The notes under the pieces are model-generated. The model worked only from the letters and a program-made list of their open reading frames with translations, was not told the DNA's origin and did no database searches. Of a stretch of 31,195 nt of DNA, positions 2,066-24,403 are shown piece by piece (the first letter of the stretch is position 1; each line of letters opens with the position of its first letter). Source of the DNA: a virus; IMG/VR virus record IMGVR_UViG_3300025102_000161, positions 1 through 31,195 of that record. One strand, given 5' to 3'. Made by a program: the position numbers and the translations under genes.

Positions 2066-2551
2066 GTGTCTGCGCTGAACGCTTCATGGGATATTCTCAA
2101 ACAAGAAGGTCAAAAGCAAGGTGAAAACAATCGCCCTGAACATAAAACACCTCAAATGCACATGAATGAGCACGAGGACAAGTTTAGGAGTGCTTTGGGA
2201 GATATGCAAGCAATTCAAGCAAATGACCCGTTGAAGAGGTTGATATCCAGCGCTCTAGGGCCTATAACGGCTGCTAGGGAGAAAATCAGAGAATTGCTAG
2301 ATAGGGCTGGAGTTGCCCACCAAGCACCTGGTGCAAAGAAAATAACAGGTAAATTAGACAAAGTGGCCGACGCTGCAGATGATGCCTACCGACATTTGCT
2401 CGCACATACTAATGAGTCAGAAGGAGGAGGTTTTGACCGAAATGGGTTAGATACTGATGTACCGACCAATACTAGTGGACAAGGTGGTCCCTTAGAGTAT
2501 GCTATGGCAGATATGAAGAACAATTCTTCGGCACCTGAGAACCCCTTCTAG
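2066..2551 (+). CDS. Unknown helical protein with N-terminal SWDILK peptide (161 aa)
   Basis: A 161-residue protein of unknown function starting at GTG 2066. ATG 2064 is out of frame and stops at once. It opens with ALNASWDILKQ, which resembles the PIDLAWSSIL opening of the next gene and the C-terminal PIDLAWSILK of the protein at 20023. The central part (about 60-115) is predicted by eye to be helical, with many Ala, Leu, Lys and Asp residues. The C-terminus is Gly/Asn-rich and looks flexible. No catalytic motif is visible. It may be a scaffold-like or accessory virion protein, which is only a guess. Confidence 0.6.
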   Translation: MSALNASWDILKQEGQKQGENNRPEHKTPQMHMNEHEDKFRSALGDMQAIQANDPLKRLISSALGPITAAREKIRELLDRAGVAHQAPGAKKITGKLDKVADAADDAYRHLLAHTNESEGGGFDRNGLDTDVPTNTSGQGGPLEYAMADMKNNSSAPENPF

Positions 2552-2589
2552 AGGGCAATCTTCTTCCCCACAACCCTGCTCCGTAGTTC

Positions 2590-5500
2590 GTGTTAGGTTC
2601 TCCTATAGACCTCGCTTGGTCTAGTATACTGGATTCTATCTACCTAAAAAAGGCCTCAGACTGGAACGCACAACATAGAGCGAGCAAGGTCCGTTCTATC
2701 GTAAATGCGGCAAAAGGCGATACAGGAGAAGACATCCAAAAAGAACTGGACACTTTATTGTTAGACGACTATTCTCGAGACTTGGGAGGGCTCAATGCCC
2801 TGCGTAAGGCACTACAGGAGCATTACATAGATAAGAACGGACAGTTGCAAACTATAGACGACCCGACGGACGCGGATTCTCCTGACTCTGTGTGGGAGTC
2901 AGACCCCTACATTAGTGAGGCTGTGCACCACGCTCTGAACGAGCACACTAGTAATGTGTACAATGATGCGTCCGTGAGGAGAGACATGGACGCTGCCATC
3001 GCTGCTCGTTATGTTTCTAACATTCCCGATTTTAGATTGCGTAGAAACAAAGTCCACAAAATGATGGACTTAGCAAGTGAAGGTAGGGCTTGGGGTAGTC
3101 GTGCACCCAGCATGACCCAAATAGACGATGAAATGAAATCTTTGCAAGAGATGCTTGATTCTGGAGAGGTGTTGCCTGATGACATAGCAGACCTTCCTCA
3201 ATTAGGCCCTGGCCACATTAGGCGTGTGGCAACAGAGAGAGTGAAAGAGAGGAACAGTCTAGACAACCCGTACGATAGACGTGGTTTAGGTTCTACCTTT
3301 GCTGACCCTAAAGAGATGTCATATCCTGAGATACGAAGAAAATTACGAGAGTTCCAAGAGGTGTTGGCATACAATTATGCAGAAAGAATGGCGAAAGACG
3401 TATCTGAGTACCGTAAAACAATCTCTCCTGAGACGTTAAAGAGATTCACTCCTGTAGGTAAGTCATACAAAGACGGTGAAGAGTGGAGAAAGGACTTCCA
3501 GTCTAGAGTAGTAAAGTCTCGAGCATACAAAGACCAATTCGCACGTCGCCTTAAGAGATTGAGAGCAGACCATCGTGATTTACCTGAGGGTTCGGAGTAT
3601 TCTAAGACTCCAGCAGAGATAGAAGAAATGGCTAAAGAGGACACCCTAGACAAGATGTGGAGGAACACTCTACACGATGCTTACATGGAAAGAGGTAGAA
3701 TCCGTGCTACAATGCACCCTCTTTTCCATAGTGTGAAATCACAACTCGAAAATGAAGGCATAGATTTAGACGCTGTTGAGGAAGACAGTGAGGGGATGAC
3801 TAACGAAGTCGAGAAGCAGATGCAGAACAAAGAAGCACAAGATGCTGTTTTCAGAATGTCACACATGATAGGAGTCAGTAAAGGAGCCAAAGGTGGTTAC
3901 GGTGGTCAAGATTGGGAGCAGGAGTATCACGACACAAATATGAGGCAAATTAAGAACGTGTGGGATAATTTGTCCAATGACGCTCAAAAGATACTACTAG
4001 GGTGGAGCATTGCTAGTGGTCCTCTATTAGGTGGTATACTCAAAATGGGTATGAGAGGCACAGCAGGTACTTACACAAAACCGCTCCCGCCGGACGCCAT
4101 AGAGCAATTCGCCGCACATATACACTCATCTAGTGAGAAGCAGAGAGGGAGAGGTGACATACCAGCGACTCACCAAGATGACACTAAGAGAATTATAGCA
4201 GATTATCTAGACGCTATAGATACTGACAGTGGTAGTAGAGAGGATAAAGCAGCCGAAGGTGGTATTACACCAGAAGAGCAGTTTGACCCCGAAACCGGTG
4301 TAAAGAGAGAAGGGCGAGGTAAATTGAGAAATGTCCCTATTACCGACCTCGGTTGGCAAAATGCTGAATATCAAACGCCGGAGGGAGGAGAGCGTCCCAC
4401 TTTAGATAATTTGATTTCAAAAGCGACCGCTCAAGGTAAGCACGAAGGCGGTTTACCGATGGAGAAGAAGTTTCTCATAGATACAATGCACCAATTAATC
4501 AACCCAAGCGAGGAAGATAACACCAACATTCTCTCTCGCAGCACATCCTCCTTGGACCCAAGTATGTGGTTGGAAGGTAAAGTAGCACCTGGTATGCAAG
4601 CCAATCAAGCACTTAGTGCGATTATTCACCAAGGCACGATGAGAGACGACTTCAATATGTACCGACAACACAGGAGAATGAAAAGACTGAGGAAACTCCT
4701 TCTTGACTACAATGGCAATCCCAAATCATACTCTGACATCGTCAAAGACCCTGGCTTTAATGAAATCTACAATGAAGACAGTTACGCTCAACTGAGGAGA
4801 GTAGGGCAAACTAGTAAGGAGAAAGAGCAATTCTTGTCCAGTTTATCAGGGAAGATGGATGAGTTGAGGGCTTGTCCGGAATGTAACGAACATGGTCACT
4901 ACCCTGGCACTAAGAATAACTGCTTAAGTGCAGGTAGTTCAGCAGGTCAGTGTTATGGGGCATTCCCAGGAAAAGGACAAGAACATCTAGCAGGTTATCT
5001 AAGACCCATGTCAGTAGCCCACAGAGAAAATGCCAGTTCGAGGAAGTTCATAGAGGGCTTGTTTGGCGATTTATTGGGTACTATCGAGCAAGACGGAGAG
5101 AGAGTACCTCACATGGACTGGTTTCAAGGGCACCACGAAGTTCCTACTTATCAGATGGGGCTCTTGGCTAAAGCAGCGAGAAGCGACAGAGAAGCCGCTC
5201 ACAAAATGAACATGACCAAAATATGTCCTAAATGCCAAGGCAGTGGTGAAATGATACTCGATGGTGAACCCATAGGGATAGAATGCCTCCAATGCAGACA
5301 TGTCGGTAAAAGAGTAGACGGTTTGATGCGTATACCTGACATGGCTGCCTTCTACGTCAGCAGAGGTTTTGGCTCTCCTGCTGGTATGCAATCAGAGATT
5401 CGTAGAGTTCAAGAGACTCATAAATTGAAGTTGAAGATTCGTGACCGATTATATGGTAGGGGGACTACACCTGCTAGTCAAGAGCAAGAGGCTGCACAAG

Positions 5501-8500
5501 AGTCTCTTGAGAGAGGCATGATACCAGCGGATGGTTCTACCACCCCTTTTGAGATACACCCTCTTACTCGTTGGCCGGATTTGCATACAGAGAAGGGACC
5601 TCTCAGTGAAGAGGGGCTAGGTAAGGCGCGTTCTGCAGCAGTTTCTGCTCTAAACGCGAACCCTCTAGACAGAATGTCAGACAGGAAAGATTTCATCAAA
5701 CAATACTTGGTTAATCACTACAACGAGATGTTTGCTAGAATAGCAGAATCATTAGACCCAGTATCAGCAGAGATTGTCAACAAGTCTAACCCCGAAACGA
5801 TAACCGAGAGTGGTTTCTTCAAAGAGTTGTTAGAACTCATGAGCGCAGACCTTCCTTACAACAGCGAGAATCCCTTGCAACTAAGTGCTCGTGCCATGAA
5901 CAGAGTCCGCTCTCACATGACTCACGCCCACGCTCCGGACTTCGACGGAAGGAACATGCATGTAGACTACGGACTCATGGAACAGGGACCATGCACATCT
6001 TGTGACGGAAGTGGGCACCCGTTGAGTGGGCTAGGAGAGCCTGTCATCTCACATTACTGTCCTGATTGTATAGGGACCACTAGTGAGGGTGTGCATAAGA
6101 TGCTCAAAAGAAACCCATGGATTAGAAGAGCGTATTCTAGAGAGCACTTGCTTGATATGTATCGCAACGGTAAACTAGAACAAGAACTAGGCAGGACTCC
6201 CTCCTATCATAACAACAAGTACCTAGACAGCGCTGGTTGTCAGTGCCATACTTGTCAAAACGGAAAAGCACCCTTATATCACACAGCAGTCGGCGCTCCT
6301 TCTCTATTCTCGAGTGGCTCTATGGCTGACAAGTTTAGGGCTACCATGTTTGCCAAGAATCCTGTGCCTAGACAATTACCAGTGAGTATGGACCCAAACA
6401 CTGTAACTGCCAACGACGCTTTGTATAATGAGATTCACAGCGCTCTCAAAAGATTCAGAAGTATAGGAGACAGTCCCAACCAACCGTTTGGTACACTGCA
6501 AGAAGACATGACTCTAACAGATTTGACCGACGAGGACATAGAGAAGGAGATAGAGAAAATACACTCAATGTTGAGCGGTAAAGATGCAAGGGATGCGTTG
6601 ATGGCTTTTCACCAAGAGGAGAACATCGTTCCAGATTTTGGTGATACATGGAACTCCGTACCATATCTCATAGACGACGACGCGAAACCTGAGGATTACA
6701 CTTCTGACAAAATGTTAGACATGCCATGCCCTTATTGTAATCGCTTAAGCAGTCTTGGGTTGTATAAAGGGGAAGTCAAAACCATAGGTCAGCATTTGAA
6801 AGAAGGAATGACGGGAGATTTGTCTTTCACTACTTGTCCTGTTGCTCAAGAGCGTGGAGATAGCGAGGATGGTAATCTATCGAAGATGACCATGGATATC
6901 AAAAACAATTACTTCGGTCCAAACAACAAAAAGAGAGACGAAGTGGAGTTAAAATGGGAAAAAGTGTATGAGTCGTTAGCACCTACACTACAAGAGATGA
7001 CAGGGAAATATAAGGGCAGTAGAGGTGCTTTAGATGCACACGCTGTACAATATGCTTTATCTCCAGGTATTGCTTTGAGAGTTCCTACCATTGCGCCAGT
7101 TGCTCCTATAATGATAGCACAACGCAGAGCGGCATCGGCCACTGGTCACAATCGAATGAACGACCCCAATAGCAGAACTAGGGGTAGATTCTCCGGTCTT
7201 ACTTGGGGTGTCAACACCCCCACTTCTCAAGACAATCCCTATGCCATGATTAGATTGGCGAAGGAGGCAATACCTACCAATGACCACAATAAAGGAAAGG
7301 TGATGAGACTTTGGGCTCTTCACATGCTCGACCCTGATTATATGGTTGAACAGCATGGCAATCCACTAGACTATCGCCCTGCTGATATTGGTGATATGGG
7401 TGAGATTAAGAGAGTTGATGAAGAGAGGGAAAAACAGTTGACGTGGGCTCGAAAGGTTCTAGGGAAAGGTAAGGGCGAATCATTAGACGAGTCAGAGAGG
7501 AGAGAGTTAGACCATGGCTGGAAAACTTTGCAGCCGTTGTTGCATCTAGAGAGAATGTGGAAAAACGATGTCTCCACACCCGAAAGGAAGGCACTGTGGG
7601 ATAATATAGACTTCGACCTCCCGAGTTCTATGTTCAACTTCGATAAACCCAACACTTTCATGCATGACGACAATACTTTCGATAACATGCTCAGTATTGT
7701 CAAAACTTGGGCTCACGACCGTTTGGCCTCCGCCACAGAGGGGGGTTACAATGCAGATGATGCTGGTTACAAGCAACCTTTCGAGAACCACCCTAGTATG
7801 GAGTGGTTCTACAAGAACAGCCACAAGCATGTCAACTCTAGATTGTTAGTGGCGTGGAAAGAGCATGATGATGAGGTTTTACGCGGGTTTGGTGATGAAT
7901 GGGTAGTAACTGGAAAGTCATTACCTGAGATAGAAAACTCCGGTTTGATGGACAAACTATGGGAGGGAGTCACCAATGGAATGCCGATTACGACAGTGAG
8001 AGACGGTAGGAACTTCATACTTGACGGTGACAAATGGCCCACTTTAGAAGAGGTCAAAGGAATGGGGCACGCTAATGAGGTTACGATTGCTAAATGGTAC
8101 AAACTCCGAAAAGAGGTGATGCTCAGAGCAGATAATAGAAAACTGAGCAAGCAGCGCATGTCTGACGAAGGGCGAGAGTACGCACAAACTGGGGCCAACG
8201 ATTTAGGGACAGGGACTCGATGCATGGTCTGTCTAGGTAACAGAACTCACATGCCAGGAATGAATGACGCTCAATTTTGGTGGTCAGCGGCAAATCCACA
8301 CATGGAAGGAGACATGGAGTCCTACGTTCCACACGTCAGTGACAATGAGGGAGGGAGAAGAAAATTAGAGATGCTCGGAATGGAAGGTTTTGAGGGACAT
8401 ACACCTAAGTGGACTCATCCTGACTCTATCAAGTGGGCTCACGACCATATGAAAACAGCACATGGTCATGAGGGAGAAGAAGGGTGGAGAGATTTCTTTG

Positions 8501-11500
8501 AAGAACAAAAGAGACACGGTATCATACCCAGCGATTGGGAAGTAGTAGATTCAAACGGAATCTATACTGACAATTACGTAAATTGGCTAGTCGGTCAAGA
8601 GCCGGAATGCGTTGCTTGCGGAGGCACTAGTCATTGCCATGATTGTGGAGGAGGAGGTTACAGCCCAGTGCCTTTTAGTGTAGAAGCAATGAACCAACAG
8701 AGAAACATCCACTTACTGAAAAGGCTAATTGAGTACAAAGGTAATGGGACGGTGATAGGTGATGATGGTGTCTTCTATGCTAATATGATGACCCCGATGT
8801 GGAGAAAACCAGTGTCTCAGATTCTTGCTGATTGGCAGATGGGTCTACCTGTAGGAGATGCCCTGCAGCACTTGGTCGCACACACTCCTCAAGGAGAGGC
8901 TATGTTTACTCATGAGGGTCTTTGGACTACTGACGAAGATGGTAAACAGAAGGTGGTCGGTAGTAAGAAAGAGTATGATAAAATACAACGCTCGGAATCC
9001 AAGGATTTCATAATCCGAAGGATAATCGAAGGAGAAGATGCGTACGCGCGGCATTTACAAGAAAGAGCAAAGCAGATTTACCCTGATGGTGAGATACCAC
9101 CAACTTGGTCTTGGCCGAGTCCGGACAAGCCTTACACTGGTTTTGATGAGAGACTTAAGAAGTGGTTGGAGACTGCCAGCCCCAATGATAAGAGAAGACT
9201 GCACGAACTATCTGTAAAGGCTGACAGAACTCTTAGGTCTGGTTTGGACAGGCAGGATGTGGATTTAGGTAAATATCCACCGGAGTACTCAGGCCTCTCA
9301 ATTAAACAACTTCAAGACAAAGCCAAGAAACTCTTCACAGGCAAAGACTTCTTGGTGTCACCAGGACAGACTGTGTCCGGTGACACATTCCTCAAACCAA
9401 TAATGAACCCACAAGCCGAAGTTACCTCATTCAACGATTGGAAATTAGGGGAATTGATAAACCACGATGAGTTGAAGATTAAGAATAAAGGTCCTGTTTG
9501 GCTTAATAACAACTTTGAAGATATAACCGGCAAGACTCTGGACCCTGAGGGACGTTTCAGCGAAGAAGATATTCTAAGATTGATATATGCAAATAGAGAA
9601 TACAAACACTACGGAAATGATACATGGCCTTCTTGGTGGACTCCTAACCACAATGAGGGCGTGCACAAAGACAATTACATTCACGGTAGAGATGCGTTTG
9701 GAGGTGAAGGTGAGGGGCCTACGAGGTGCGGTCACGCAAATTGTGGCAAGATACCCATATATGGTCCTAAACGCATAGGAGACAAATACAACCCATACGG
9801 GTCTTTTTGTGAAGACCACCACCTAGAAGAGATGCATAGAGTACACACTAGGACAGAAAATCTAGTGGGGGGTAGAAATATATTCGGTGGCCAATCGTTG
9901 TTGCTTGATATACTAAACTCTACTCATCTAGATGAAGAGGAGATAGAAGCAGCATTTAGAGGAGAGAAGTACGGCGAGGAAGGTCTTTTCCGAGGACATG
10001 GTCAGTTAGCAGGTTTAGGTCTGTCATTTTTAGGTTTCAAAAAGATAAAGGGGACTAATGGGAACTCTGACCATTTCATGCCTTACTTCGAGGGACCTCT
10101 AGGTAGAGTAGGAACTGCTGCCGATTTCGGTTTGGGCCATGAGACCTCTAGACCAGGAAGAAGGGGGATAAGGGGGGACTCGCTATTAGACTCTGAGTTT
10201 TGGCAACCTAAAAAGCGCGGCGCTGATGTAGAAAACAGAGGGGTTTCTTTCTTCGATGGGCATGGTTGGGACTATCACCAAACAGCCAATTCACTACCAC
10301 TCATTAGACTCAGTGGTATCAATGAGAAAATAACAAGCAGAATGGAGCAAGACCCTTATCGGAACCAATGGAAGACACCGCAACAGAAATCAGTATGTCC
10401 GGATTGTTTCTCCTTAATACCAAAGACCGTAGAAGATAACCAGTCAGATGAGGCTCGTAGATTCTTCGATGAAAAAGGAAGATATCCTCAAATTATACCT
10501 GATTGTCCCTCATGTGGGCGTGAGCATGGCTACTACACAGTAAACAAACAGGACAAAGTAGTCTACCAAAGAGACATCCCTAGAGGCGACCACGTACATG
10601 CAAGAGATTTACTTTTCAAGACTAACCATGTCGGTGAACCTGTTTTGACTAATCACCAAGAAGAGTTGAGGGCTAGAACACGACTGATAGAAAGATTAGA
10701 AGCAGTCGAGAGAGGAGAGAAAGACCCTTACAACCAAAGAGAGGACGAGCCCCTTTCAAGATGGTTCAAGTTTTCCGGAAACACTGTAAAATTGAAACCA
10801 GGAGACCCACGACCGGAAGAGGGGACTAATGTCCGGCCTGAGGAAATAATCCAATCTCTACGACACATACTAGTCAAGAGAGATAAGTTTGGTGTAATAG
10901 AAACGAACAAGGACGGCATGCCAAAATACTCTAAGGACCATGCAAAATTAATAGAACAAGCCAAGACCATATTAGACCCGAAATACAGACTTCCTGTAGT
11001 TCATTCCGGTTTTGGTTCTAGAATGGGCCATCACCTTAATCCGACTCAAGACACTTTCAGAGGCATGCACACAGTAAGTGCTGCCGATAAGGTAGTAGAA
11101 AACATAAACAATGTCCTAAAGAACAACAAAAGCAACTTACAGAAATTGTCTACTAAGATAGATAACGCCTTCATGAGATTATCTAAAGGTAAGATTGAGG
11201 ATACTAGAGACATTGGTATGGTGAGAGAAATAGGCAATACTGGCATACAGCAATACGTACGTAGTTCAAAAGCCCAAGATGTTATTAGGGCCGCTAAAAA
11301 AATAGTAGAGCAGAGTGCTTTACCTACATCATTTGCTATAGGAGATGACAAAAAGACTAGGGACTTAAGAGACGCCCATCTAATAATAAACATGCTCGAG
11401 AGGCTAGATGATATTAAGACAAGCGCACATAAACACCAAGATTTCGGACGTCTGATGTTATATAGTGACACTCGTTCTCATTTTGCGGAAGACGCACGTT

Positions 11501-11859
11501 TGAGTGCAGTAACCACCGCTAATCAACAATACGCGACTGGTGTACTAGGTGCGATGCGTAATGGTGTGAGGGCAGCCGCCATACCGATGAATGACGACGT
11601 CGATGCTGATACTAGAGCCTCTTACAAGCGGTTTAGTCATGGGATACGACCACAGTCCTATCATGACATGATGTCACAACACGAAGACACTGCTAGAGAA
11701 CAATTCAATAATTGGAGCAAGGACTACTTCCAATATGCTAATGATGAAGGAGATGGACCTACACAAGAACAAACGACCTCGGAGCAGGACATTAATCAAC
11801 CTAGAGGTATAGAGGTTCGTGGCGATGATGGTGAGTGGCAACCGTATAGTAATTCTTGA
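2590..11859 (+). CDS. Giant zinc-cluster protein (3089 aa), probable virion component
   Basis: A single open frame of 3089 codons from GTG 2590; a TAG lies in frame at 2584. No Shine-Dalgarno is visible. The protein is hydrophilic and charged, with no signal peptide. It opens with PIDLAWSSIL (residues 5-14). A mildly hydrophobic Gly-rich stretch lies near 468-488. Cysteine clusters occur at about 762, 879, 1135/1138 with 1157/1160, 1217-1222, 1380/1383, 1878/1881, 2007-2019, 2380-2407, and 2603/2606 with 2639/2642. Several read C-x2-C-x-G-x-G (CPKCQGSG, CTSCDGSG) or CHDCGGGG, as in the DnaJ zinc domain. No enzyme motif was recognised. Its size and position in the virion cassette suggest a giant internal or tail protein, or a polyprotein; this is inference. 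Confidence 0.85.
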   Translation: MLGSPIDLAWSSILDSIYLKKASDWNAQHRASKVRSIVNAAKGDTGEDIQKELDTLLLDDYSRDLGGLNALRKALQEHYIDKNGQLQTIDDPTDADSPDSVWESDPYISEAVHHALNEHTSNVYNDASVRRDMDAAIAARYVSNIPDFRLRRNKVHKMMDLASEGRAWGSRAPSMTQIDDEMKSLQEMLDSGEVLPDDIADLPQLGPGHIRRVATERVKERNSLDNPYDRRGLGSTFADPKEMSYPEIRRKLREFQEVLAYNYAERMAKDVSEYRKTISPETLKRFTPVGKSYKDGEEWRKDFQSRVVKSRAYKDQFARRLKRLRADHRDLPEGSEYSKTPAEIEEMAKEDTLDKMWRNTLHDAYMERGRIRATMHPLFHSVKSQLENEGIDLDAVEEDSEGMTNEVEKQMQNKEAQDAVFRMSHMIGVSKGAKGGYGGQDWEQEYHDTNMRQIKNVWDNLSNDAQKILLGWSIASGPLLGGILKMGMRGTAGTYTKPLPPDAIEQFAAHIHSSSEKQRGRGDIPATHQDDTKRIIADYLDAIDTDSGSREDKAAEGGITPEEQFDPETGVKREGRGKLRNVPITDLGWQNAEYQTPEGGERPTLDNLISKATAQGKHEGGLPMEKKFLIDTMHQLINPSEEDNTNILSRSTSSLDPSMWLEGKVAPGMQANQALSAIIHQGTMRDDFNMYRQHRRMKRLRKLLLDYNGNPKSYSDIVKDPGFNEIYNEDSYAQLRRVGQTSKEKEQFLSSLSGKMDELRACPECNEHGHYPGTKNNCLSAGSSAGQCYGAFPGKGQEHLAGYLRPMSVAHRENASSRKFIEGLFGDLLGTIEQDGERVPHMDWFQGHHEVPTYQMGLLAKAARSDREAAHKMNMTKICPKCQGSGEMILDGEPIGIECLQCRHVGKRVDGLMRIPDMAAFYVSRGFGSPAGMQSEIRRVQETHKLKLKIRDRLYGRGTTPASQEQEAAQESLERGMIPADGSTTPFEIHPLTRWPDLHTEKGPLSEEGLGKARSAAVSALNANPLDRMSDRKDFIKQYLVNHYNEMFARIAESLDPVSAEIVNKSNPETITESGFFKELLELMSADLPYNSENPLQLSARAMNRVRSHMTHAHAPDFDGRNMHVDYGLMEQGPCTSCDGSGHPLSGLGEPVISHYCPDCIGTTSEGVHKMLKRNPWIRRAYSREHLLDMYRNGKLEQELGRTPSYHNNKYLDSAGCQCHTCQNGKAPLYHTAVGAPSLFSSGSMADKFRATMFAKNPVPRQLPVSMDPNTVTANDALYNEIHSALKRFRSIGDSPNQPFGTLQEDMTLTDLTDEDIEKEIEKIHSMLSGKDARDALMAFHQEENIVPDFGDTWNSVPYLIDDDAKPEDYTSDKMLDMPCPYCNRLSSLGLYKGEVKTIGQHLKEGMTGDLSFTTCPVAQERGDSEDGNLSKMTMDIKNNYFGPNNKKRDEVELKWEKVYESLAPTLQEMTGKYKGSRGALDAHAVQYALSPGIALRVPTIAPVAPIMIAQRRAASATGHNRMNDPNSRTRGRFSGLTWGVNTPTSQDNPYAMIRLAKEAIPTNDHNKGKVMRLWALHMLDPDYMVEQHGNPLDYRPADIGDMGEIKRVDEEREKQLTWARKVLGKGKGESLDESERRELDHGWKTLQPLLHLERMWKNDVSTPERKALWDNIDFDLPSSMFNFDKPNTFMHDDNTFDNMLSIVKTWAHDRLASATEGGYNADDAGYKQPFENHPSMEWFYKNSHKHVNSRLLVAWKEHDDEVLRGFGDEWVVTGKSLPEIENSGLMDKLWEGVTNGMPITTVRDGRNFILDGDKWPTLEEVKGMGHANEVTIAKWYKLRKEVMLRADNRKLSKQRMSDEGREYAQTGANDLGTGTRCMVCLGNRTHMPGMNDAQFWWSAANPHMEGDMESYVPHVSDNEGGRRKLEMLGMEGFEGHTPKWTHPDSIKWAHDHMKTAHGHEGEEGWRDFFEEQKRHGIIPSDWEVVDSNGIYTDNYVNWLVGQEPECVACGGTSHCHDCGGGGYSPVPFSVEAMNQQRNIHLLKRLIEYKGNGTVIGDDGVFYANMMTPMWRKPVSQILADWQMGLPVGDALQHLVAHTPQGEAMFTHEGLWTTDEDGKQKVVGSKKEYDKIQRSESKDFIIRRIIEGEDAYARHLQERAKQIYPDGEIPPTWSWPSPDKPYTGFDERLKKWLETASPNDKRRLHELSVKADRTLRSGLDRQDVDLGKYPPEYSGLSIKQLQDKAKKLFTGKDFLVSPGQTVSGDTFLKPIMNPQAEVTSFNDWKLGELINHDELKIKNKGPVWLNNNFEDITGKTLDPEGRFSEEDILRLIYANREYKHYGNDTWPSWWTPNHNEGVHKDNYIHGRDAFGGEGEGPTRCGHANCGKIPIYGPKRIGDKYNPYGSFCEDHHLEEMHRVHTRTENLVGGRNIFGGQSLLLDILNSTHLDEEEIEAAFRGEKYGEEGLFRGHGQLAGLGLSFLGFKKIKGTNGNSDHFMPYFEGPLGRVGTAADFGLGHETSRPGRRGIRGDSLLDSEFWQPKKRGADVENRGVSFFDGHGWDYHQTANSLPLIRLSGINEKITSRMEQDPYRNQWKTPQQKSVCPDCFSLIPKTVEDNQSDEARRFFDEKGRYPQIIPDCPSCGREHGYYTVNKQDKVVYQRDIPRGDHVHARDLLFKTNHVGEPVLTNHQEELRARTRLIERLEAVERGEKDPYNQREDEPLSRWFKFSGNTVKLKPGDPRPEEGTNVRPEEIIQSLRHILVKRDKFGVIETNKDGMPKYSKDHAKLIEQAKTILDPKYRLPVVHSGFGSRMGHHLNPTQDTFRGMHTVSAADKVVENINNVLKNNKSNLQKLSTKIDNAFMRLSKGKIEDTRDIGMVREIGNTGIQQYVRSSKAQDVIRAAKKIVEQSALPTSFAIGDDKKTRDLRDAHLIINMLERLDDIKTSAHKHQDFGRLMLYSDTRSHFAEDARLSAVTTANQQYATGVLGAMRNGVRAAAIPMNDDVDADTRASYKRFSHGIRPQSYHDMMSQHEDTAREQFNNWSKDYFQYANDEGDGPTQEQTTSEQDINQPRGIEVRGDDGEWQPYSNS

Positions 11860-12832: not shown

Positions 12833-13552
12833 ATGGTAGGCGTTACGGGTTCAATACTGATGGGAGCCATAGTATATGGCAAGGAATTGTACAATTTTCT
12901 CAAACCAAGAAGAGTGGGAATATATGGCCCGACAATGGTAGGGAAGACTACTTTGGACAGATTTATGACTACACCAGGAGAGATGGAAGATATAGAGGAA
13001 AGAACCGACCACGACCCTCGTTTGATAGGAGGTGGACATGTTCTTCCCAAGGCTACGCGAAAGAGAGTCAGATGGCACGGAGAAAAGAGAATAGTTCATT
13101 CTGCCGATGTGGGTGGCCAACAACGATTTTGGAACCTATGGATAGAAGATATGGTGGAAAGACAAGTAGAGATTGTCGTATTCATGGTAGACCATCGAGG
13201 GAAAGTTGGGGGCAACGCAGATATCATCGACGCAGTGGGAGGTTTGGAGTTTCTCGTAGACGCCTTAATCGCGAGGGATTGGAAATACAGGAGTTTGAAG
13301 ACATGGTGGAAAGGCAGAAAGTACGCCCCCACTCAAATATGGGTAGTGGCAAACAAAGCCGATTTGTGGTGGGACGACAAAGCAAATATCCTTTGGCAAT
13401 CAAAAAGATTGAGAGAACACCCTATTTTCGACCCTTATCGTCCTTCTATGGTGAAACTCCAAAAAGCAGGCATTCCCTGCAGAGTATCAATGATGGCTAC
13501 CAAGATAGGTTGGAACGTCGAGCAGAGCATGCTAGAAATGCTAAGTTGGTGA
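12833..13552 (+). CDS. Arf/Ras-type small GTPase (239 aa)
   Basis: A complete small GTPase. The P-loop (G1) is GPTMVGKT at residues 32-39. G3 is DVGGQ at 92-96, the form typical of Arf and G-alpha proteins rather than the DTAGQ of Ras/Rab, with the switch-II glutamine kept and F-W following. G4 is NKAD at 174-177, after the strand IWVVA. G5 is probably S-M-M-A-T-K at about 219-224. Residues 3-15 are weakly hydrophobic (VTGSILMGAIVY) and might be a membrane contact, as N-terminal helices are in Arf. It should bind and hydrolyse GTP as a switch. It follows two membrane proteins, which suggests action at a membrane in host takeover, assembly or exit. The partner (GAP/GEF) is unknown. Such GTPases are unusual in virus structural operons. 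Confidence 0.88.
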   Translation: MVGVTGSILMGAIVYGKELYNFLKPRRVGIYGPTMVGKTTLDRFMTTPGEMEDIEERTDHDPRLIGGGHVLPKATRKRVRWHGEKRIVHSADVGGQQRFWNLWIEDMVERQVEIVVFMVDHRGKVGGNADIIDAVGGLEFLVDALIARDWKYRSLKTWWKGRKYAPTQIWVVANKADLWWDDKANILWQSKRLREHPIFDPYRPSMVKLQKAGIPCRVSMMATKIGWNVEQSMLEMLSW

Positions 13553-16835: not shown

Positions 16836-18120
16836 AGGTAACAAAGGCAGTTCCTCAGGTATGAGATTCAACCCTCGAGAGGGTCCTGAGTTTATGGAAG
16901 AAGACCGTAACCTAGGCAGAGATGATGCTGAGAGCAGGCAAAGACTTGATGAGAAGAAAAGGAAGGAGAAAGAAGACCGCCACAAAAAATTGGCTGGTTT
17001 GCAACACGTCGCTGTGAGAGTTAAAAGTAAGAAACGTCCTGAGGGAGACGACCAAAGAAATGATGAGAGATTATCAGAAATGACAGGGCCTGCAAGTAGC
17101 ACAGGTTATCCTCTAGACGTCGCAAGTGGTGCTAAGACAGGTACTGGGTCTGCTATGGGTGGCCCTAATATCATGACTGGTCATCCAATCGATATAGACT
17201 TTGATGCCATACTCAAAAAGAAGAAGAAGGCTGGGAGTAAAAAACGCAAGAAGTCGGATGATATCAAGTCTATCAAGACTAGACAAAGAGGTAAAGAGAC
17301 TAGAAGAAGAAGAGCGAAAATGGGAGATACTGCCCTCAGCCGTACTTACAAAGGAGGAGGCGTTAGAGGATTTCGTAATACTGAGGGCTATACTGAGACT
17401 CGTGCTACTATTGCCCAAAGGACAGAAGGGTCTGGTGGTAAGAATGTGGTTCGTAGAGGTCACGGTGGTAGAGGTAAAGGTTGGAGACAATCAACTAGTG
17501 GTAAAGGTACTAAGAGAGAAGCCACTCCCGACCCAAGAAAAGTACAAGCGAATATTGAAACTAGTCAAATGGCTAGAAAGGTTCCTACACATACCAGTGG
17601 ATATCAATTACCCTCTTCTCAAGCATATGAGAATGTGATGAGACCTCCACCTAAAGGGCCTAGGATAGACCATCCTCAACAAACTGCTAGTGATTTGACA
17701 CCCGCGAGCAGTAGACAAGTCAACCGACCTGGAGTCGCTCGCTCTGTTGGAGGGCAACAAATATCATCACCTGGTGGACCAACTGATGGCATGACAGGTT
17801 TCCAAGCAGCCTCTGTTCTAACGTCGTTTGAAAGATTGTTAGAATATGAAGGGATTATATCGAAGGCTAAGATTAGTGGTGCTGATATAACAGAGTTCAG
17901 ATTCTTAATTAGAGAGTTGAAGAAACTGTTACGTTCAGGCGCGTTGAAAAAGTCCGGCTTGGAAGATGCTGAGCATGACGATGAGAGACCCAGCCCTAAT
18001 TCCCATCGGAAGACAACGAGCCACCCTACCGGAGCCACAGAGGTAGACCCTGACGACGACCCCCGATATTGGGGAGCGCACCCGATGGGCCTTTTGTTGC
18101 CTCGGAGGGGACACATGTGA
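16825..18120 (+). CDS. Highly basic disordered protein (431 aa), possible DNA-binding virion protein
   Basis: A 431-residue protein with a textbook ribosome site (GGAGGG, five bases before ATG 16825). Residues 1-90 are charged and coiled-coil-like. Two similar segments follow: TGYPLDVASGAKTG near 94 and TGHPIDIDFDAILKKKKKAG near 119-138. The second resembles the PIDLAWSILK peptide of other proteins here. Residues 135-250 are Lys/Arg/Gly-rich (RRRRAK, RGHGGRGKG) and should bind nucleic acid. A short helical domain at about 332-375 is the only part likely to fold. The tail is acidic. A role in condensing or guiding DNA during packaging is possible. The next gene starts in its last four bases (GTGA). 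Confidence 0.62.
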   Translation: MAGEGNKGSSSGMRFNPREGPEFMEEDRNLGRDDAESRQRLDEKKRKEKEDRHKKLAGLQHVAVRVKSKKRPEGDDQRNDERLSEMTGPASSTGYPLDVASGAKTGTGSAMGGPNIMTGHPIDIDFDAILKKKKKAGSKKRKKSDDIKSIKTRQRGKETRRRRAKMGDTALSRTYKGGGVRGFRNTEGYTETRATIAQRTEGSGGKNVVRRGHGGRGKGWRQSTSGKGTKREATPDPRKVQANIETSQMARKVPTHTSGYQLPSSQAYENVMRPPPKGPRIDHPQQTASDLTPASSRQVNRPGVARSVGGQQISSPGGPTDGMTGFQAASVLTSFERLLEYEGIISKAKISGADITEFRFLIRELKKLLRSGALKKSGLEDAEHDDERPSPNSHRKTTSHPTGATEVDPDDDPRYWGAHPMGLLLPRRGHM

Positions 18121-19994
18121 TAGGCGTATCAATACTCAAAGGGGGAGGAGTCCTTCTACAAGGAGACCATGCGAAAGAAGCCGGTGGTATGCACCGAGCC
18201 CTCTCTCCAGGTGAAATGGCTAAGTTTTTTCCTGACGGAGAAAACCCCTTCCATATTAATCCCATTACCTTGAAGAGGTATGACGAAGACCCTAACTACG
18301 ATAATAGAGATGTCCTCAAAGCAATTATTGAAGACAGTGCATACGCTTTGGAAAAGGCCGGACACCCTGTATCGCAAAACCCAACAGAACTACGCAGAAT
18401 GTTAAGGGAGATGCTCAACAAATCTCTACATTTATTCAATAGTAGACAAACTAATGATTTGAATAAGTACCCTGAGAAGGCATACTTAGATGTGAATAAT
18501 GAGAAGTCATTACATCCTGAGTTTCAAGGCCACGCTTATGCACCTAGGTTCCAAGAGAACATCAATAAACTCAAACCGGAGCAGATAAGAATCCGCAACA
18601 AAAAGAATCAACTTATCATGTACAACGCTAGTCAACAAGACCACGCACAACATGGACACATGTCAGAGAGTGGATTCTTTGGCGCCCTCCCACTCTTCCT
18701 AAAGATGTTCACTGACCAATTTAATGTTGAACCAATGCATACCTTAGGAAAGGGTAACTACATTAAACCAGAAAGCATGGTAGTTCACACTAATCCAACA
18801 ACAGGAGAGAGGAGCAACCCATGGAAATATCATTACTCCAATCAAAACGTATTCGACTCTGCTGATAGAGGCACACGGCACAGCAGAGCAGACGGGCAGC
18901 CTCATCACTTGAGAAGTGTGATGGGTAGTTTGCACCCTGCTTGGTTCCAGCCTTCGCACGAGACCGACTACGCCAGCGCACAATCGAGGCTGGCATATGC
19001 TCGTATCATACTCACGAGGAATGGAAGAGGCTCAGAAGCCAGTGATGCAGACATTCTCAATTTCGCTCGGTCGAACCTCATGCAAACCATACACGACTCG
19101 GCTATAGGTAGAAGGTCTACTCGCAGTAATACGAGAAGTAAGAAACTCATAGATGACATGAGAGAGGTGATAGGGTTGAATCGTCGTGGCTCCGGTGTGA
19201 TGCATACTAATGAGCAGAAACAGTTAGATGATTATGTCAGAGTTAACGCTTCTAATATCAATGTTGGTAGGTATATTGGTCAAGGCGGAATTAACGCAAA
19301 ATCTCACCATAATGCAAAAAGCACACTACAAGAGGCTCTCATGCTTACTATGATGATTGCAGGCAATCCAAAATACGATAGGATGCTACAGAGGAAAAGA
19401 GGGGCCGATGATGGTTTTGCTATAGGTAAGTTATTGCAACAGAAGTTCATGCAGTCCCACGCTCACGACACCGATTACGTAGACGCTAGCAATTTCCAGT
19501 TTTTCGAGCCTGGAGATGTACCAAAACCAGTGGTCTCTCTAGACCCTAATGGTACTCTCGCTGATGGTCGTGCGATGCGTTCTCCACGAGTTCCCACGGG
19601 AGAGTTTGCAGTGTCCGACGCACCTTCAGGTCCAGGTCAAAGAATCACAGGTAACTTGGGATACACTCAAGCACTACCCCCTCAATTACCACCTAGAGAC
19701 CCAACCTTCGACCCTGGATTCAAAACATCATCTGACACATTGACAGATTTGATGGAACACCTACAATCAGCAGATGCTAGGATGGATTCATTAATCATCA
19801 AGTCCCTACCGTCACGTAGAAGATTCTACTTAGACGACGATACAGATTGTAATATTCTATGTAAGTCTTTCTCGTTAGAAACTAGAGATTTGCATCTAAT
19901 AGACCAAAGTCTAGGTGACTGGACGCTTATAGCGGAACGCTTGAAAGTGGAGCCCCGTGTGGTGAAAGCGGTCAAGGTGGCCTTGAGGTGGTAA
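18117..19994 (+). CDS. Unknown protein with C-terminal HTH-like segment (625 aa)
   Basis: A 625-residue protein. GTG 18117 is chosen because GGAGGGG lies six bases upstream and it overlaps the previous stop as GTGA. The body is hydrophilic with many His and Asn residues and no recognised fold. A Pro-rich linker lies near 525-560. The last 45 residues (ending TLIAERLKVEPRVVKAVKVALRW) look like a helix-turn-helix: a helix, the turn-like L-G-D-W, then I-A-E-R-L-K-V and a recognition-like helix. The N-terminus MIGVSILKGG loosely resembles the recurrent SILK peptide of this virus. The gene precedes the terminase region, so packaging or head assembly is possible. Confidence 0.62.
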   Translation: MIGVSILKGGGVLLQGDHAKEAGGMHRALSPGEMAKFFPDGENPFHINPITLKRYDEDPNYDNRDVLKAIIEDSAYALEKAGHPVSQNPTELRRMLREMLNKSLHLFNSRQTNDLNKYPEKAYLDVNNEKSLHPEFQGHAYAPRFQENINKLKPEQIRIRNKKNQLIMYNASQQDHAQHGHMSESGFFGALPLFLKMFTDQFNVEPMHTLGKGNYIKPESMVVHTNPTTGERSNPWKYHYSNQNVFDSADRGTRHSRADGQPHHLRSVMGSLHPAWFQPSHETDYASAQSRLAYARIILTRNGRGSEASDADILNFARSNLMQTIHDSAIGRRSTRSNTRSKKLIDDMREVIGLNRRGSGVMHTNEQKQLDDYVRVNASNINVGRYIGQGGINAKSHHNAKSTLQEALMLTMMIAGNPKYDRMLQRKRGADDGFAIGKLLQQKFMQSHAHDTDYVDASNFQFFEPGDVPKPVVSLDPNGTLADGRAMRSPRVPTGEFAVSDAPSGPGQRITGNLGYTQALPPQLPPRDPTFDPGFKTSSDTLTDLMEHLQSADARMDSLIIKSLPSRRRFYLDDDTDCNILCKSFSLETRDLHLIDQSLGDWTLIAERLKVEPRVVKAVKVALRW

Positions 19995-20022: not shown

Positions 20023-21555
20023 TTGATTAGCAAGAGAAAACTTCGAGTTAGTGGTCTTGACCCAAACAACCCACCTACTATGCACAGTAGACCTAGGATT
20101 CACCCGTTAGGTGCTTTCAGTAGATTGGCCGGTGGTGGGGTAAGACCAGTTGGCCAATTCGGCCCTGATAATTCATTCGAGTACCCTCATGACATCCAGG
20201 TAGGAGACCCGTCCAAAAACCCTGGATTCTATCAGCGAGCAAAAGACTACTCAAGAATGGCAGAAATGTGGAGTGACCAGCAAAATAGTCTACGACGGTT
20301 GGTAGCGCAGAACCCTAATGCGAGACTACCCGCAGGCTTTGCAGGAAAACAGAATCCTGGTTTTGCTCGAGATTATCTTCACGATGCTGGCCAACGTGAG
20401 GGTTCCAAAGGTGGAAGGAAACCTGAGCAATATATTCTGTACACCAACGATGGTCCCGAAATGTTAGGAGGGGTAGGTGATAGAGGGCCGTTCCACAACA
20501 GACTCGCTAACTTCATGAATCATGTTGTTTCTTTCATTCCAGGCCTACGAGACCCCCAATACAGAAATCAACTCAAAAGAATACAACGTATGCAGAAAGA
20601 TGCGATAAAGGTTCTAGATTATCACACCCGTGGTAAGATGATGAACCCCAATCGTGAGATGTCAGATGCAGATAAGAAGATAGTCAATGAGTTCCTCAGT
20701 ACCTTCTATGTCACAGAGGGTTTGGATGTCAATGCGGCTAAGCGTGCTGCTGCTATGATGACACAAATGCAGAGCGATAACCCTGCAGAGGTCGACAAGC
20801 ACATGAACGAGGCCATTGAATCCGGTGAAACTGACCCACAAAAACTTTTCAATTATGTTAGTCAAAGGATGAAAGTGGGAGACGATGTTGGAGATGTTGA
20901 TTTTGGGGATGAATCTACCGGAGATGTGGCAGATGATGTGCCTGACGGTTCAAAGTTGTCTTACATCCTACCTGAGATAGGGCATACTCAAGGAAAATCA
21001 TACAAGCCGGCAGATTGCGAGTTCGCTCAGCAGTTCTTAGGAGGCAAGCATCTACAGGATACAACAGCAGGAGGTAAAATGGTCAACCTACAACCGAGCC
21101 ACTACAAGGCTTTACGAACTGCTTTGGAGGCTGCTAAAAGAGACGTACACGCAAATGCGAACTCTCACATAAAAGGGAAACTACCTGCTAATCCGGACCA
21201 AAGCGCGTTCGATTTCATACTCAATAATCCTGCATTCAACTCATCGTTAGAAGGCGCATCTAAGACTGCGAGAAATCGTGTCAAAGGCTCTTTGCAGAGC
21301 CTTTCAACCCAAGGACAAAGCGAGCGTATCAGTGCTATGGTTGGTTATGTGCTAGGCAATCCCGAGCACGTTCAGCAAGTCACTCAAGAGAGGGGTATGA
21401 CCAATTACGACCCTGCTCAACCACATACTTATTTCACCCCTCCTGCTGAACAACCTAATCCTGGACAGAACATAGACTTGACTGGGTCGGATGAGGTGCA
21501 ACTCTCAGAACGCGAACCTATTGACCTAGCGTGGAGCATCCTCAAGGGGGCGTAA
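20023..21555 (+). CDS. Unknown virion-type protein ending PIDLAWSILKGA (510 aa)
   Basis: A protein of about 510 residues just before TerL, with two bases between the genes. It is rich in Asn, Gln, Pro and charged residues, with a helical region around 190-290 and a second around 350-460. The extreme C-terminus is PIDLAWSILKGA, the clearest copy of a peptide repeated in other proteins here. The start is uncertain. TTG 20023 has only a weak site, while GAGGTG (19985-19990) lies five bases before an in-frame ATA at 19996, which would add the sequence IGFLHDWDDL. The C-terminal lysine-Gly-Ala codons double as the ribosome site (AAGGGGG) of the terminase gene. No family was recognised. Confidence 0.65.
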   Translation: MISKRKLRVSGLDPNNPPTMHSRPRIHPLGAFSRLAGGGVRPVGQFGPDNSFEYPHDIQVGDPSKNPGFYQRAKDYSRMAEMWSDQQNSLRRLVAQNPNARLPAGFAGKQNPGFARDYLHDAGQREGSKGGRKPEQYILYTNDGPEMLGGVGDRGPFHNRLANFMNHVVSFIPGLRDPQYRNQLKRIQRMQKDAIKVLDYHTRGKMMNPNREMSDADKKIVNEFLSTFYVTEGLDVNAAKRAAAMMTQMQSDNPAEVDKHMNEAIESGETDPQKLFNYVSQRMKVGDDVGDVDFGDESTGDVADDVPDGSKLSYILPEIGHTQGKSYKPADCEFAQQFLGGKHLQDTTAGGKMVNLQPSHYKALRTALEAAKRDVHANANSHIKGKLPANPDQSAFDFILNNPAFNSSLEGASKTARNRVKGSLQSLSTQGQSERISAMVGYVLGNPEHVQQVTQERGMTNYDPAQPHTYFTPPAEQPNPGQNIDLTGSDEVQLSEREPIDLAWSILKGA

Positions 21556-21557
21556 TA

Positions 21558-22964
21558 TTGCCTAGCCCTACAATATCAACAGAAGTAATAGAAGAGATAG
21601 ATTGGGAGATGGCTAAGAAGGATTTTAAGTTCTTCTTTGAGCAGATTTTAGGTTGGCAGTTAGCAGACCATCATGCTAAATGGTTTCATAACTTAAATAC
21701 TCATAAAAGATACTGTGTTAAGGCTTCGAGAGACCATGGTAAATCTACTTTGTTTCTAGGTTATTTGTTATGGAAGGTTATATTCACTCCCAAACTTGAC
21801 ACTATGATATTCAGTCACAGCCTAGACCAATCAATACGACATATGAGAGGACTTAATGATTTGATTGACGGTTCTCCCATGTTGGCTAAGATGAAAGACA
21901 AGGACGCTTGGTCCAAGACATTCTTTGGGTTTACCAACGGCTCTCGAATTAATGCTAAGTCCGTAGGAGGTGGTGTCCGTGGTGCTCACCCCGACCTCAT
22001 ACTTTGTGACGATATTTTGTGGGGCACTACTGAAACTGAACTCCAGAGAGTAGCCTCATGGTTTTATGAAGTGTTGATGCCTACTCTCCATCATACTTCT
22101 CAACTTTGTATAGTAGGGACTCCTTTCACTCCTACTGACCTTTACACAGAGTTGGAGGCTAGGGACGGATATCTCGTAGAGACTTATCCTGCAATTAATG
22201 AGAAAGGAGAACCGCTTTGGCCTTGGAGGTGGTCTTTAGAGGCTTTAGATTTAAGACGGCAAGATATGCCAGCCATCGCATTCACTCGAGAATATCTGTG
22301 CGAACCAATGGACGATATGTCCAGCCTTTTCCCCTCTGCTGTAGTCAATGCATGTAAAGACCCATATCTCCATCTCATGGACAGGCGAGACCCTGATGAC
22401 GACAGTCAGTATTTCATTGGCTGGGACCCTGCTATATCCTCTGACCGTTCAGCAGACTACACTGTAATGATGGTATTGAGAAGGCCCCCTGAGGATACTA
22501 ACCTACTCGAAGTGGTGCATGTAGTCCGACGTAAGGGTATGGATTTCAGAACACAAATCATAGAGATTCAGCGATTGAACAACAAGTTTCGCCCTGAGGT
22601 GATAGAGTTAGAGGCTAACCACTTCCAACGTGTGTTTGCTACGGAACTGAGAGCAGATACAGATTTGCCGATAAAGACCTTCATCAGCACAAAACAAAGA
22701 AGGGAGAGTTTGCTGATGGGTTTGGTTCTTCGATTCGAGAGAGAGCAAGTTCGTCTACCTTGGGCTGACGAGAGAGCCCGTGAAGTCATAAGCCAGTTAG
22801 AGCACGAGTTAATCATGTTCGGTATGAGTAAGACTGGTAAACTAGATAGTATCGCAAGGCATGATGACTTGGCTATCGCTCTTGCTTTAGGTAATTGGGC
22901 GACTACCGAGTTCCGTGAGAGAATTATAGACTTAGATAGTTTAATGTCGGGGTTGATAGATTGA
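21558..22964 (+). CDS. terL: Terminase large subunit, ATPase and nuclease (468 aa)
   Basis: The DNA-packaging motor of tailed viruses. The N-terminal ATPase has a Walker A-type loop SRDHGKST (residues 57-64) after the strand RYCVKA. The motif V-R-G-A-H-P-D then leads into Walker B LILCDD (147-152), and the coupling motif VGTPF follows near 186-190. The C-terminal RNase H-like nuclease begins FIGWDPA (D290) and continues with VIELEANH and the closing HDDLAIALALG acidic pair. Length is normal for the family. The start is TTG 21558, with GGGGGC about seven bases upstream; an upstream in-frame GTG at 21531 would overlap the previous gene and has no better site. It works with the portal and small terminase. 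The next gene starts in its stop (TTGA). Confidence 0.93.
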   Translation: MPSPTISTEVIEEIDWEMAKKDFKFFFEQILGWQLADHHAKWFHNLNTHKRYCVKASRDHGKSTLFLGYLLWKVIFTPKLDTMIFSHSLDQSIRHMRGLNDLIDGSPMLAKMKDKDAWSKTFFGFTNGSRINAKSVGGGVRGAHPDLILCDDILWGTTETELQRVASWFYEVLMPTLHHTSQLCIVGTPFTPTDLYTELEARDGYLVETYPAINEKGEPLWPWRWSLEALDLRRQDMPAIAFTREYLCEPMDDMSSLFPSAVVNACKDPYLHLMDRRDPDDDSQYFIGWDPAISSDRSADYTVMMVLRRPPEDTNLLEVVHVVRRKGMDFRTQIIEIQRLNNKFRPEVIELEANHFQRVFATELRADTDLPIKTFISTKQRRESLLMGLVLRFEREQVRLPWADERAREVISQLEHELIMFGMSKTGKLDSIARHDDLAIALALGNWATTEFRERIIDLDSLMSGLID

Positions 22965-24403
22965 TTTGGGGCAGTGCTCTTATTGGTGATGATTTCGATG
23001 CAGATACTGATGAGCCTGATGCAGATAAGGCTTGGGTCATCAAACAACTCATGCAACATCCTGTGTTGAAGAACAGCGTAGGAGTAGTAGCATTTGGAAA
23101 CAACAGCAAGACCCCTACTGGAGGTGGAGGTAAATTGGGAGCAGGCCCGTCTGCTGCCTCGGAAGTAGACACTCCAGAAGAGAAGAAAAACAAAAAGAAA
23201 TTGATGGAAGAAATGAGACAAGACGGAATGAAACTAGCGTCAGATGCAGGTTGGTTCGAGGACTCTTTCGGTAAATCAGCGTCCGCTTTAGTCAAGGACC
23301 TAAGATTGAAGAGGAGAGTCCACAAACAATTCAGTCAAGACATAGACGATGCAATCATGGCTATACGCATGGCGAAAAGCAATGAGGTGCAAAGAGGGCT
23401 AGATAGTATAACATGGGGTGGTGACTATTTAGATGCGATAAAGGGAATGAACCTCAATGACAAAGATTTCAAGGCTTTGATTAAGCATGGTGAGAAGAGA
23501 CAAGTCTCGCTCATCCAAGCGTGCAATCAATGGCAAGACGCTAACAATGTGCTTACTAAATTGTCTCAAATAAATGGAGAGTTTGACGAGGGACAATTAT
23601 CTCTTTGGTCTGACGCCACTAAAATGAAGAAAGACGCTAGACAGATGTGGAGACATTCTCTGCATCGTTCCTCTAAATTGAACAAAGCAGAGCAACACTC
23701 TCTATTATCAGCCAGTGACTTGTTGGATTATCACGGACCGATGGACAGCAGAACAATGCACACCCACATGACAAGCAATGACGGTAGAAGCGCAGGTCTT
23801 CCCTCAGTGCAACAACTTGGTGCTTTGTTGAAAACGTACGGTCCGGATTATGACATATTCAAACATGGTACTTTGTGGGAGAGGCAGAGTTCACAATCTC
23901 CTTTGCTAGTGAAAGACCCTTGGGCCTACGCTGCAGGATTCTTAGATGCTGATGGTTACATCACCATTAGTAAGAAGGGAGAACCACGCGCAGGATTTGT
24001 GGCAACAGGGGATAGAGGTAAGGTGCATTGTGAGAATCTCTATGATATGATAGGTGCTGGTGTACTATCTCTTGACCTCAAAGTGCACAAGAGTAGCAAG
24101 AGGAGCCAACATAGACTGCAATTCTATAGTAAAAATGATATCAGTAAATTACTCAAAGGCACTTACCCACATCTTAGACTAAAGAAAAACCAAGCACGTC
24201 ACGTGATGGAACTCTTGTCTCACCGAGGCAAAGATGGTGATTTGATAAGCAAGAGAAGAGATGAGTTGTACAGGTTAGTGAAATGGGAAAACTGGAAAGA
24301 TGTTAAAGCGGAAGAACTACTCAACGAGTGGAATGTTGATGAACAAGAGGTGCTCTCGTGGGATTCAACGGACCCTGACGCGATAGGGTTTGAGGTGGTT
24401 TGA
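22961..24403 (+). CDS. Unknown virion-type protein fused to LAGLIDADG domain (480 aa)
   Basis: A 480-residue protein starting at TTG 22961 (TTGA overlap with TerL; GGGG eight bases upstream). The first 30 residues are very acidic, followed by a Gly/Lys-rich linker. Residues 80-315 are mostly helical and unrecognised. Residues 319-332 read DPWAYAAGFLDADG, a LAGLIDADG homing-endonuclease motif with its catalytic-position acid at D331. The beta strand YITISKKGEPRAGFVA and a basic helical region follow, as expected for one half-domain. A single motif implies action as a dimer. No intein splicing residues are seen. Position between TerL and portal suggests either a captured endonuclease or a domain reused for DNA binding in the head. 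Confidence 0.72.
   Translation: MIWGSALIGDDFDADTDEPDADKAWVIKQLMQHPVLKNSVGVVAFGNNSKTPTGGGGKLGAGPSAASEVDTPEEKKNKKKLMEEMRQDGMKLASDAGWFEDSFGKSASALVKDLRLKRRVHKQFSQDIDDAIMAIRMAKSNEVQRGLDSITWGGDYLDAIKGMNLNDKDFKALIKHGEKRQVSLIQACNQWQDANNVLTKLSQINGEFDEGQLSLWSDATKMKKDARQMWRHSLHRSSKLNKAEQHSLLSASDLLDYHGPMDSRTMHTHMTSNDGRSAGLPSVQQLGALLKTYGPDYDIFKHGTLWERQSSQSPLLVKDPWAYAAGFLDADGYITISKKGEPRAGFVATGDRGKVHCENLYDMIGAGVLSLDLKVHKSSKRSQHRLQFYSKNDISKLLKGTYPHLRLKKNQARHVMELLSHRGKDGDLISKRRDELYRLVKWENWKDVKAEELLNEWNVDEQEVLSWDSTDPDAIGFEVV

Follow-up and report, generated by a model that had tools for sequence, protein, structure and literature searches.

A giant late protein with an end tag and a conserved cysteine core: candidate virion cargo of a probably archaeal marine tailed virus

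In phage T4, the capsid targeting sequence (CTS) is an N-terminal peptide of 10–20 residues that brings proteins into the prohead (PMC5694885). Among archaeal viruses, the magroviruses (Aoguangviridae, Magrovirales) have genomes of about 100 kb organized in two opposed gene clusters, which hold a family B DNA polymerase (PolB), a clamp loader, a chaperonin, and the head genes of a tailed virus (PMC10768690). The virus considered here is known from an IMG/VR fragment of 31,195 nucleotides (IMGVR_UViG_3300025102_000161), referred to below as the window. The terminase large subunit (TerL) and portal protein are clear in this tailed virus, which is marine and probably archaeal (Table 1). The named relatives of its portal are haloarchaeal Druskaviridae and methanogen-associated viruses, the nearest being HCTV-5 and HVTV-1 (Druskaviridae), with 28–29% identity over 67%. 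A 118-kb relative, G015, whose TerL is 87% identical to that of the window, carries the giant gene, terL, and the portal, protease, MCP, and tail-like genes on one strand, and PolB, a clamp-loader-like AAA protein, an SNF2 helicase, and a Cpn60/TCP-1 chaperonin on the opposed strand. Judged by gene content alone, the window's virus group is thus laid out like the magroviruses (PMC10768690). In the open PMC literature, we found no match for a magrovirus giant protein, a magrovirus GTPase, or an AWxxLK-type motif.

Table 1. Features of the window discussed in the text (positions in the window; residues are those of the giant unless another protein is named).
Feature	Coordinates	Strand	Remarks
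Small variable protein	2066..2551	+	Precedes the giant; N-terminal tag LNASWDILK at its residues 4–12; of 11 relatives, G003 alone has a match
Giant late protein	2590..11859	+	3,089 aa, begins with GTG, free of internal stops; homologues occupy the slot in relatives
Giant N-terminal tag	2605..2634	+	Residues 6–15, IDLAWSSILD; relaxed form of [FLMI][DE]xAWx[LIVF]LK
Stretch with all 12 CxxC pairs	4873..10515	+	Residues 762–2642
Conserved cysteine core	8185..8664	+	Residues about 1866–2025; profile comparison with clades D, E, and C; 34-sequence alignment
Core CxxC pair 1878–1881	8221..8232	+	Both Cys invariant in 34 sequences
Core CxxC pair 2007–2010	8608..8619	+	Both Cys invariant in 34 sequences
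Core CxxC pair 2016–2019	8635..8646	+	Invariant at the first Cys, ≥90% at the second (34 sequences)
202-aa protein with hydrophobic segment	11965..12573	+	Conserved neighbour, between giant and GTPase-like gene
Small-GTPase-like protein	12833..13552	+	GPTMVGKTT (P-loop), DVGGQ, and NKAD by eye; slot anchor
641-aa variable protein	18069..19994	+	Positional counterpart in G015 (526 aa) carries the tag at its C-terminus
510-aa variable protein	20023..21555	+	C-terminal tag IDLAWSILKGA, then stop; precedes TerL
Terminase large subunit	21531..22964	+	phrog_38, E=1.5e-58
Portal protein	24400..26334	+	phrog_18178, E=2e-68; tblastn to Druskaviridae

Several further observations concern the surroundings of the giant. 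A conserved gene at 15701–16390 (+) encodes N-terminal CxxC pairs and a helix-turn-helix, and has weak matches that include the terminase small subunit, making it a possible TerS. Between terL and the portal gene, 22961–24403 (+) contains a homing-endonuclease-like stretch (residues 321–424, phrog_5046, E=7e-9). The Gly/Pro/Met-rich protein at 27082–27858 (+) contains CPCGNGKMASECCG, which we take to resemble a SEC-C-type motif. A second giant (27874–31194, +), open at the window end and 2,395 aa long in G015, lies between the portal and protease genes and matched no PHROGs or Pfam family; a further open frame of 3,877 aa is present in L104. One viral contig of the group, L123 (PAUP01000076.1), was the single match in a genome collection and is binned in a public 'Cytophagaceae' MAG; it equals an IMG/VR contig (L148) in length, and the binning is probably an error.

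The window was singled out in a sequence-only reading for a single uninterrupted gene for a 3,089-aa protein, and the gene stands as described. Its open frame spans 2587–11856 with an in-frame stop immediately upstream, so that the N-terminus can be extended by at most one residue. The protein has 31 cysteines and twelve CxxC pairs, at residues 762, 879, 899, 1135, 1157, 1219, 1380, 1878, 2007, 2016, 2603, and 2639, whereas 20,000 trials of residue shuffling gave 0.30 on average and never more than 4; the earlier range (residues 762–2642) and count of at least eight clusters are both right. Six of the pairs read CxxCxG and three match CxxCxGxG exactly, in agreement with the DnaJ-like spacing that had been noticed. 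The absence of a recognised enzyme domain was likewise borne out: nothing exceeded the cut-off in Pfam (best matches Smoothelin, E=0.004, and EsV_1_7_cys, E=0.07) or PHROGs (best E=0.03), and NCBIfam and PADLOC assigned no family. The EsV-1-7 cysteine motif match, below cut-off, covers residues 2380–2418 (9727–9843), and homologues of the giant have a Cys/His pattern resembling that of this stretch. Homologues from other clades also matched no curated family at cut-off in the same four libraries, not every homologue having been run against every library. Polyvalent phage proteins join several recognisable enzyme or DNA-binding domains within one giant protein; with none above cut-off in the four libraries, the window giant does not qualify as one. 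Two other identities were considered and set aside. RNA polymerases, of the multi-subunit type or carried in virions, have a conserved catalytic DxDGD motif, and DFDGRNMHVD at residue 1117 resembles the catalytic loop of large polymerase subunits; it is not retained in homologues. As for a tape measure, the giant has no PHROGs tape-measure match and its gene lies upstream of terL, while the tape-measure-like match in G015 is a different gene (48364–49917, phrog_1538).

The giant gene occupies a fixed late-gene slot just upstream of the 202-aa protein and the small-GTPase-like protein. The latter is 62–85% identical in 11 relatives and has weak profile matches to Arf (Pfam E=0.08, PDB E=0.7); a search of solved-structure sequences with its alignment gave nothing significant. 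Viral loci were scanned with this protein, and among the best 80 of 211 relatives, 68 had a gene in the slot, in addition to the window; the other 12 either lacked sufficient upstream sequence or had no open frame reaching 200 aa at that distance. In another search, 4 of 50 records matched, of which G032, short and with one internal stop, was discounted. Within the best 80 and the window's sub-group, the slot giants related by a common core range from 914 to 3,555 aa. The window's sub-group has proteins of 2,748–3,555 aa with 12–16 CxxC pairs; clade C, 2,525–2,600 aa with three; clade D (32 loci), 1,653–2,590 aa, some of them truncated at a contig end, with four each; L171, 1,641 aa with five; and clade E, 914–943 aa with four. 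In the 17 loci of clade F, the slot holds a protein of 343–586 aa without profile similarity to the giant, and hence a different protein in the same place. The idea that these are small ancestors of the giant was rejected on that ground, although many of them nonetheless start with the end tag described below.

The slot giant diverges far faster than the genes around it. Across 11 relatives, TerL, portal, and GTPase-like protein keep 62–90% identity, whereas the giant, the products of 18069–19994 and 20023–21555, and the second giant show about 26–46% over parts of their length or no match, a short patch of 58% in the second giant being the exception. G003 and G004 both have a TerL 90% identical to that of the window, yet the G003 giant is 26% identical over about half its length and the G004 giant has no BLAST match. 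When pairs of loci are sorted by identity of the GTPase-like protein, the median giant identity is 89% at 97% or above and falls to 34% at 93–97% (range 0–72, 39 pairs); for pairs under 80%, it does not exceed 8%. The GTPase tree places the window together with L129 and two clade C viruses in a single group (support 100/93), within which L129 is sister to clade C (L128/L130; support 100/97). The giants of L129/G003, with 48 cysteines, have no BLAST match to those of clade C, with 9–12. Sister GTPases beside unmatched giants suggest that the giant gene is exchanged whole, in addition to diverging rapidly. Since the tree is rooted at its midpoint for drawing only, growth of the giant from about 930 aa upward is one possible way to read it.

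The only region common to the slot giants of all clades is a core of ~130–160 aa, recovered by profile comparison. In the window, it reads C-x2-C-x-G ... C-x2-C-x-G-x3-C-x2-C-x-G, and in a 34-sequence alignment its invariant columns are Cys 1878, 1881, 2007, 2010, and 2016 and one glycine. With hhalign, the core of group W/B matched that of clade D at E=2.6e-11 (probability 97) and that of clade E at E=2.3e-7 (94); D matched E at E=1.5e-9 (96), and D against C was weaker yet colinear (E=1e-4, 58). The cysteine clusters of the window outside the core are additions of its sub-group, partly common to G003, G015, and G016. The proposed series of small zinc folds is not the defining trait of the family. 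In all 32 clade D and all four clade E giants, the CxxC pairs number exactly four, and one lies ~230–680 residues from the other three; this distant pair is invariant in clade D. Exactly four pairs make plausible two four-cysteine sites, one of which would bridge a long stretch of the protein. The suggestion of a zinc-stapled protein survives in this narrow, predicted form for clades D and E, whose distant pair would suit a long-range staple; the long series of 12–16 pairs belongs to the window's own sub-group, relatives having 3–5.

Structure prediction, one of the checks that the sequence-only reading had proposed, yielded moderate models and no significant fold match. AlphaFold models of residues 1513–2039 around the window core (34 sequences) and of a 1,160-residue stretch from clade D (25 sequences) are rich in helices, with confidence that is moderate in both (pLDDT 65, pTM 0.46–0.47). 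Foldseek returned no match to them at E<=0.001, and VIA-align mainly long helical hairpins, the best row being such a hairpin (Z 9.3, rmsd 4.5, 92 aligned) on a model of this moderate confidence. A search of solved-structure sequences with the core alignment gave nothing significant. Viral contigs scanned with the giant itself gave no match, and the core alignment retrieved only three records that were already known. The core profile was also without a match in HCTV-5. The CxxCxG(xG) pairs, of which two are close neighbours, recall the DnaJ-type CxxCxGxG domain and Anti-TRAP; Pfam DnaJ_CXXCXGXG (PF00684) nevertheless has no match in the giant or in four homologues, and Anti-TRAP reaches E=0.03 in L131, below cut-off.

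A second shared element is a short tag at the protein ends. The giant starts with VLGSPIDLAWSSILDS, and the protein preceding TerL ends with EREPIDLAWSILKGA. Across 2,467 non-redundant ORFs from loci of these viruses, the preferred residues are [FLMI][DE]xAWx[LIVF]LK, and 178 ORFs, forming 100 single-linkage families, have the tag at an end, against 7.0 expected; 43 of the 221 tag-bearing ORFs have it internally only. These ORFs were picked mechanically, some not being genes, and the count omits L001, L105, L106, L123, L127, and ORFs running off a locus end. In a set of 458 ORFs from 11 records, the strict tag occurred 33 times near N-termini and seven times at C-termini (0.6 expected in each case), and 13 times internally (about 6 expected). 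It is nearly exclusive to the late strand, being found in 138 of 1,349 late-strand ORFs and 4 of 429 on the other strand (Fisher p=6e-13); in four near-complete contigs, none of the 194 early-strand ORFs (49+54+52+39) carried it. The relaxed tag, with a background of 2.7% per 75-residue stretch, is present on 12 of 13 slot giants outside clade D (W/B 4, C 2, L171 1, and E 5, one of these a fragment), and clade B giants are tagged at both ends. The exception is G003/L129; the L129 locus is cut at the N-terminus and stands outside the per-clade tag table, the full G003 protein having been examined instead. The 32 clade D giants have the core but no strict tag, and four relaxed matches among them are near background; a tag match in clade D at G053 12151–12495 is doubtful. 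Either tag and core are separable, or clade D giants are not loaded by the tag. A second end motif of clade D giants, VRIIKAD, is absent from the other proteins of those loci. The tag also resembles the MIM1 motif of ESCRT-III, a likeness set aside as coincidence. In the structural region of HCTV-5, none of 42 ORFs has the tag, and among 29 ORFs of vir335 one match is internal and another is weak and C-terminal-like.

Most tagged proteins have no Pfam match: among 95 family representatives, Pfam recognised 12 families, and these include DnaJ-type zinc domains, a SLOG-like protein, a NUDIX hydrolase, and a zinc ribbon of TFIIS type. The NUDIX hydrolase (L195:1417–1977) is tagged at both termini. 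The TFIIS-type factor (L128:832–1296), paired with the Pfam TFIIS match by pattern and not by name, has two zinc ribbons, the sequence RSADEP, and an N-terminal tag, and its gene lies in the late cluster directly upstream of the clade C giant.

With a shared tag and rapid change outside the core, the giant looks like tagged particle cargo. On the best view, it is the largest member of a set of variable late proteins that carry end tags, and we assign a probability of about 45% to the reading that it is a late, cargo-type protein loaded into the virion by an end-located tag. Within it, the core would fold around zinc and act as a functional hub; for clades D and E, the distant fourth CxxC pair would staple the core to the remainder of the protein. 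The tag would serve as a loading peptide, docking the proteins to a shared assembly partner such as the scaffold, portal, or shell, so that the giant and its tagged neighbours could be carried in the particle and act on the host at entry, and the hypervariability might stem from an arms race against the host or against rivals. The interpretation given in the sequence-only reading is partly supported: of its three roles, an internal protein injected with DNA comes nearest to the evidence, namely a hypervariable gene of the late cluster whose end motif recurs on a NUDIX hydrolase and a TFIIS-like factor, injection itself being putative. The main result against cargo and loading is the set of clade D giants that lack the tag; the internal-only tags and the moderate models without a significant fold match also weigh on that side.

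The same late cluster adjoining terL and portal, with its shared end motif, could also belong to a scaffold or core organiser, the tag gathering proteins at the assembly site and none being retained in the particle; the doubly tagged clade B giants would suit a bridging scaffold. Such a protein would be expected to co-evolve with the conserved shell and portal, yet the giant is exchanged, and NUDIX and TFIIS-like proteins with the tag would be unexpected clients for a scaffold, so we hold this alternative to be rather unlikely. The giant and the tagged proteins could instead be late effectors acting inside the infected cell, with a tag that would dock to a host complex; the tagged TFIIS-type factor and NUDIX hydrolase speak for this, and the hypervariability would fit a host interface. 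Early genes should then carry the tag too, and the early strands of the four contigs have none, which makes the effector alternative improbable.

The remaining two alternatives stem from the earlier suggestions and fared worse. A structural tether or tail/fibre core would agree with a large, hydrophilic protein that is helix-rich in models, but in G015 the tail-like genes, with their tape-measure-like match, lie ~33 kb downstream of the giant, and the slot gene ranges from the smallest to the largest giants while the packaging genes are conserved; we consider this role very unlikely. Least probable is a polyprotein cut after synthesis into several zinc proteins. The length of the giant and the additional cysteine clusters spread along it would fit such a product; against it, inspection of the alignments by eye showed neither a repeated linker nor a cleavage motif, and homologues keep a single open frame.

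Beyond the giant itself, the cargo reading extends to a more general and more tentative picture, in which one widespread group of tailed viruses of marine archaea would load dozens of interchangeable, fast-evolving proteins into the particle through a nine-residue terminal tag, for delivery to the host. The NUDIX hydrolase, the TFIIS-type factor, and swappable 3,000-residue giants with a zinc core would all be plug-in cargo for a common socket. This picture is possible and falls well short of probable. If the cargo reading is right, the tag on about 100 families would predict from sequence the delivered protein set of a large group of uncultured marine viruses, and a string of unidentified late genes would become a testable class. 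The giant itself shows over what range the occupant of one slot can grow, with a core of about 150 residues inside proteins of 914 to 3,555 aa, and at what pace such a gene can be replaced while the packaging genes stay.

The described systems resemble this one in different respects. The magroviruses share its gene layout and differ in G+C, which is 31.5% in the Aoguangviridae type genome ON649702 (PMC10768690) and about 45% in the window. The closest parallel to the tag is found in the internal head (ejection) proteins of T4 and the giant phage SPN3US, where several late proteins that are otherwise unrelated have a short terminal peptide in common (PMC5694885). Unlike those peptides as described there, the tag of the present viruses also occurs at C-termini and sometimes internally, has no known cleavage site and no sequence relation that we found, and has a putative role in packaging. 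Taking the CTS of T4 (PMC5694885) as the model, we propose that the tag would load proteins into the particle.
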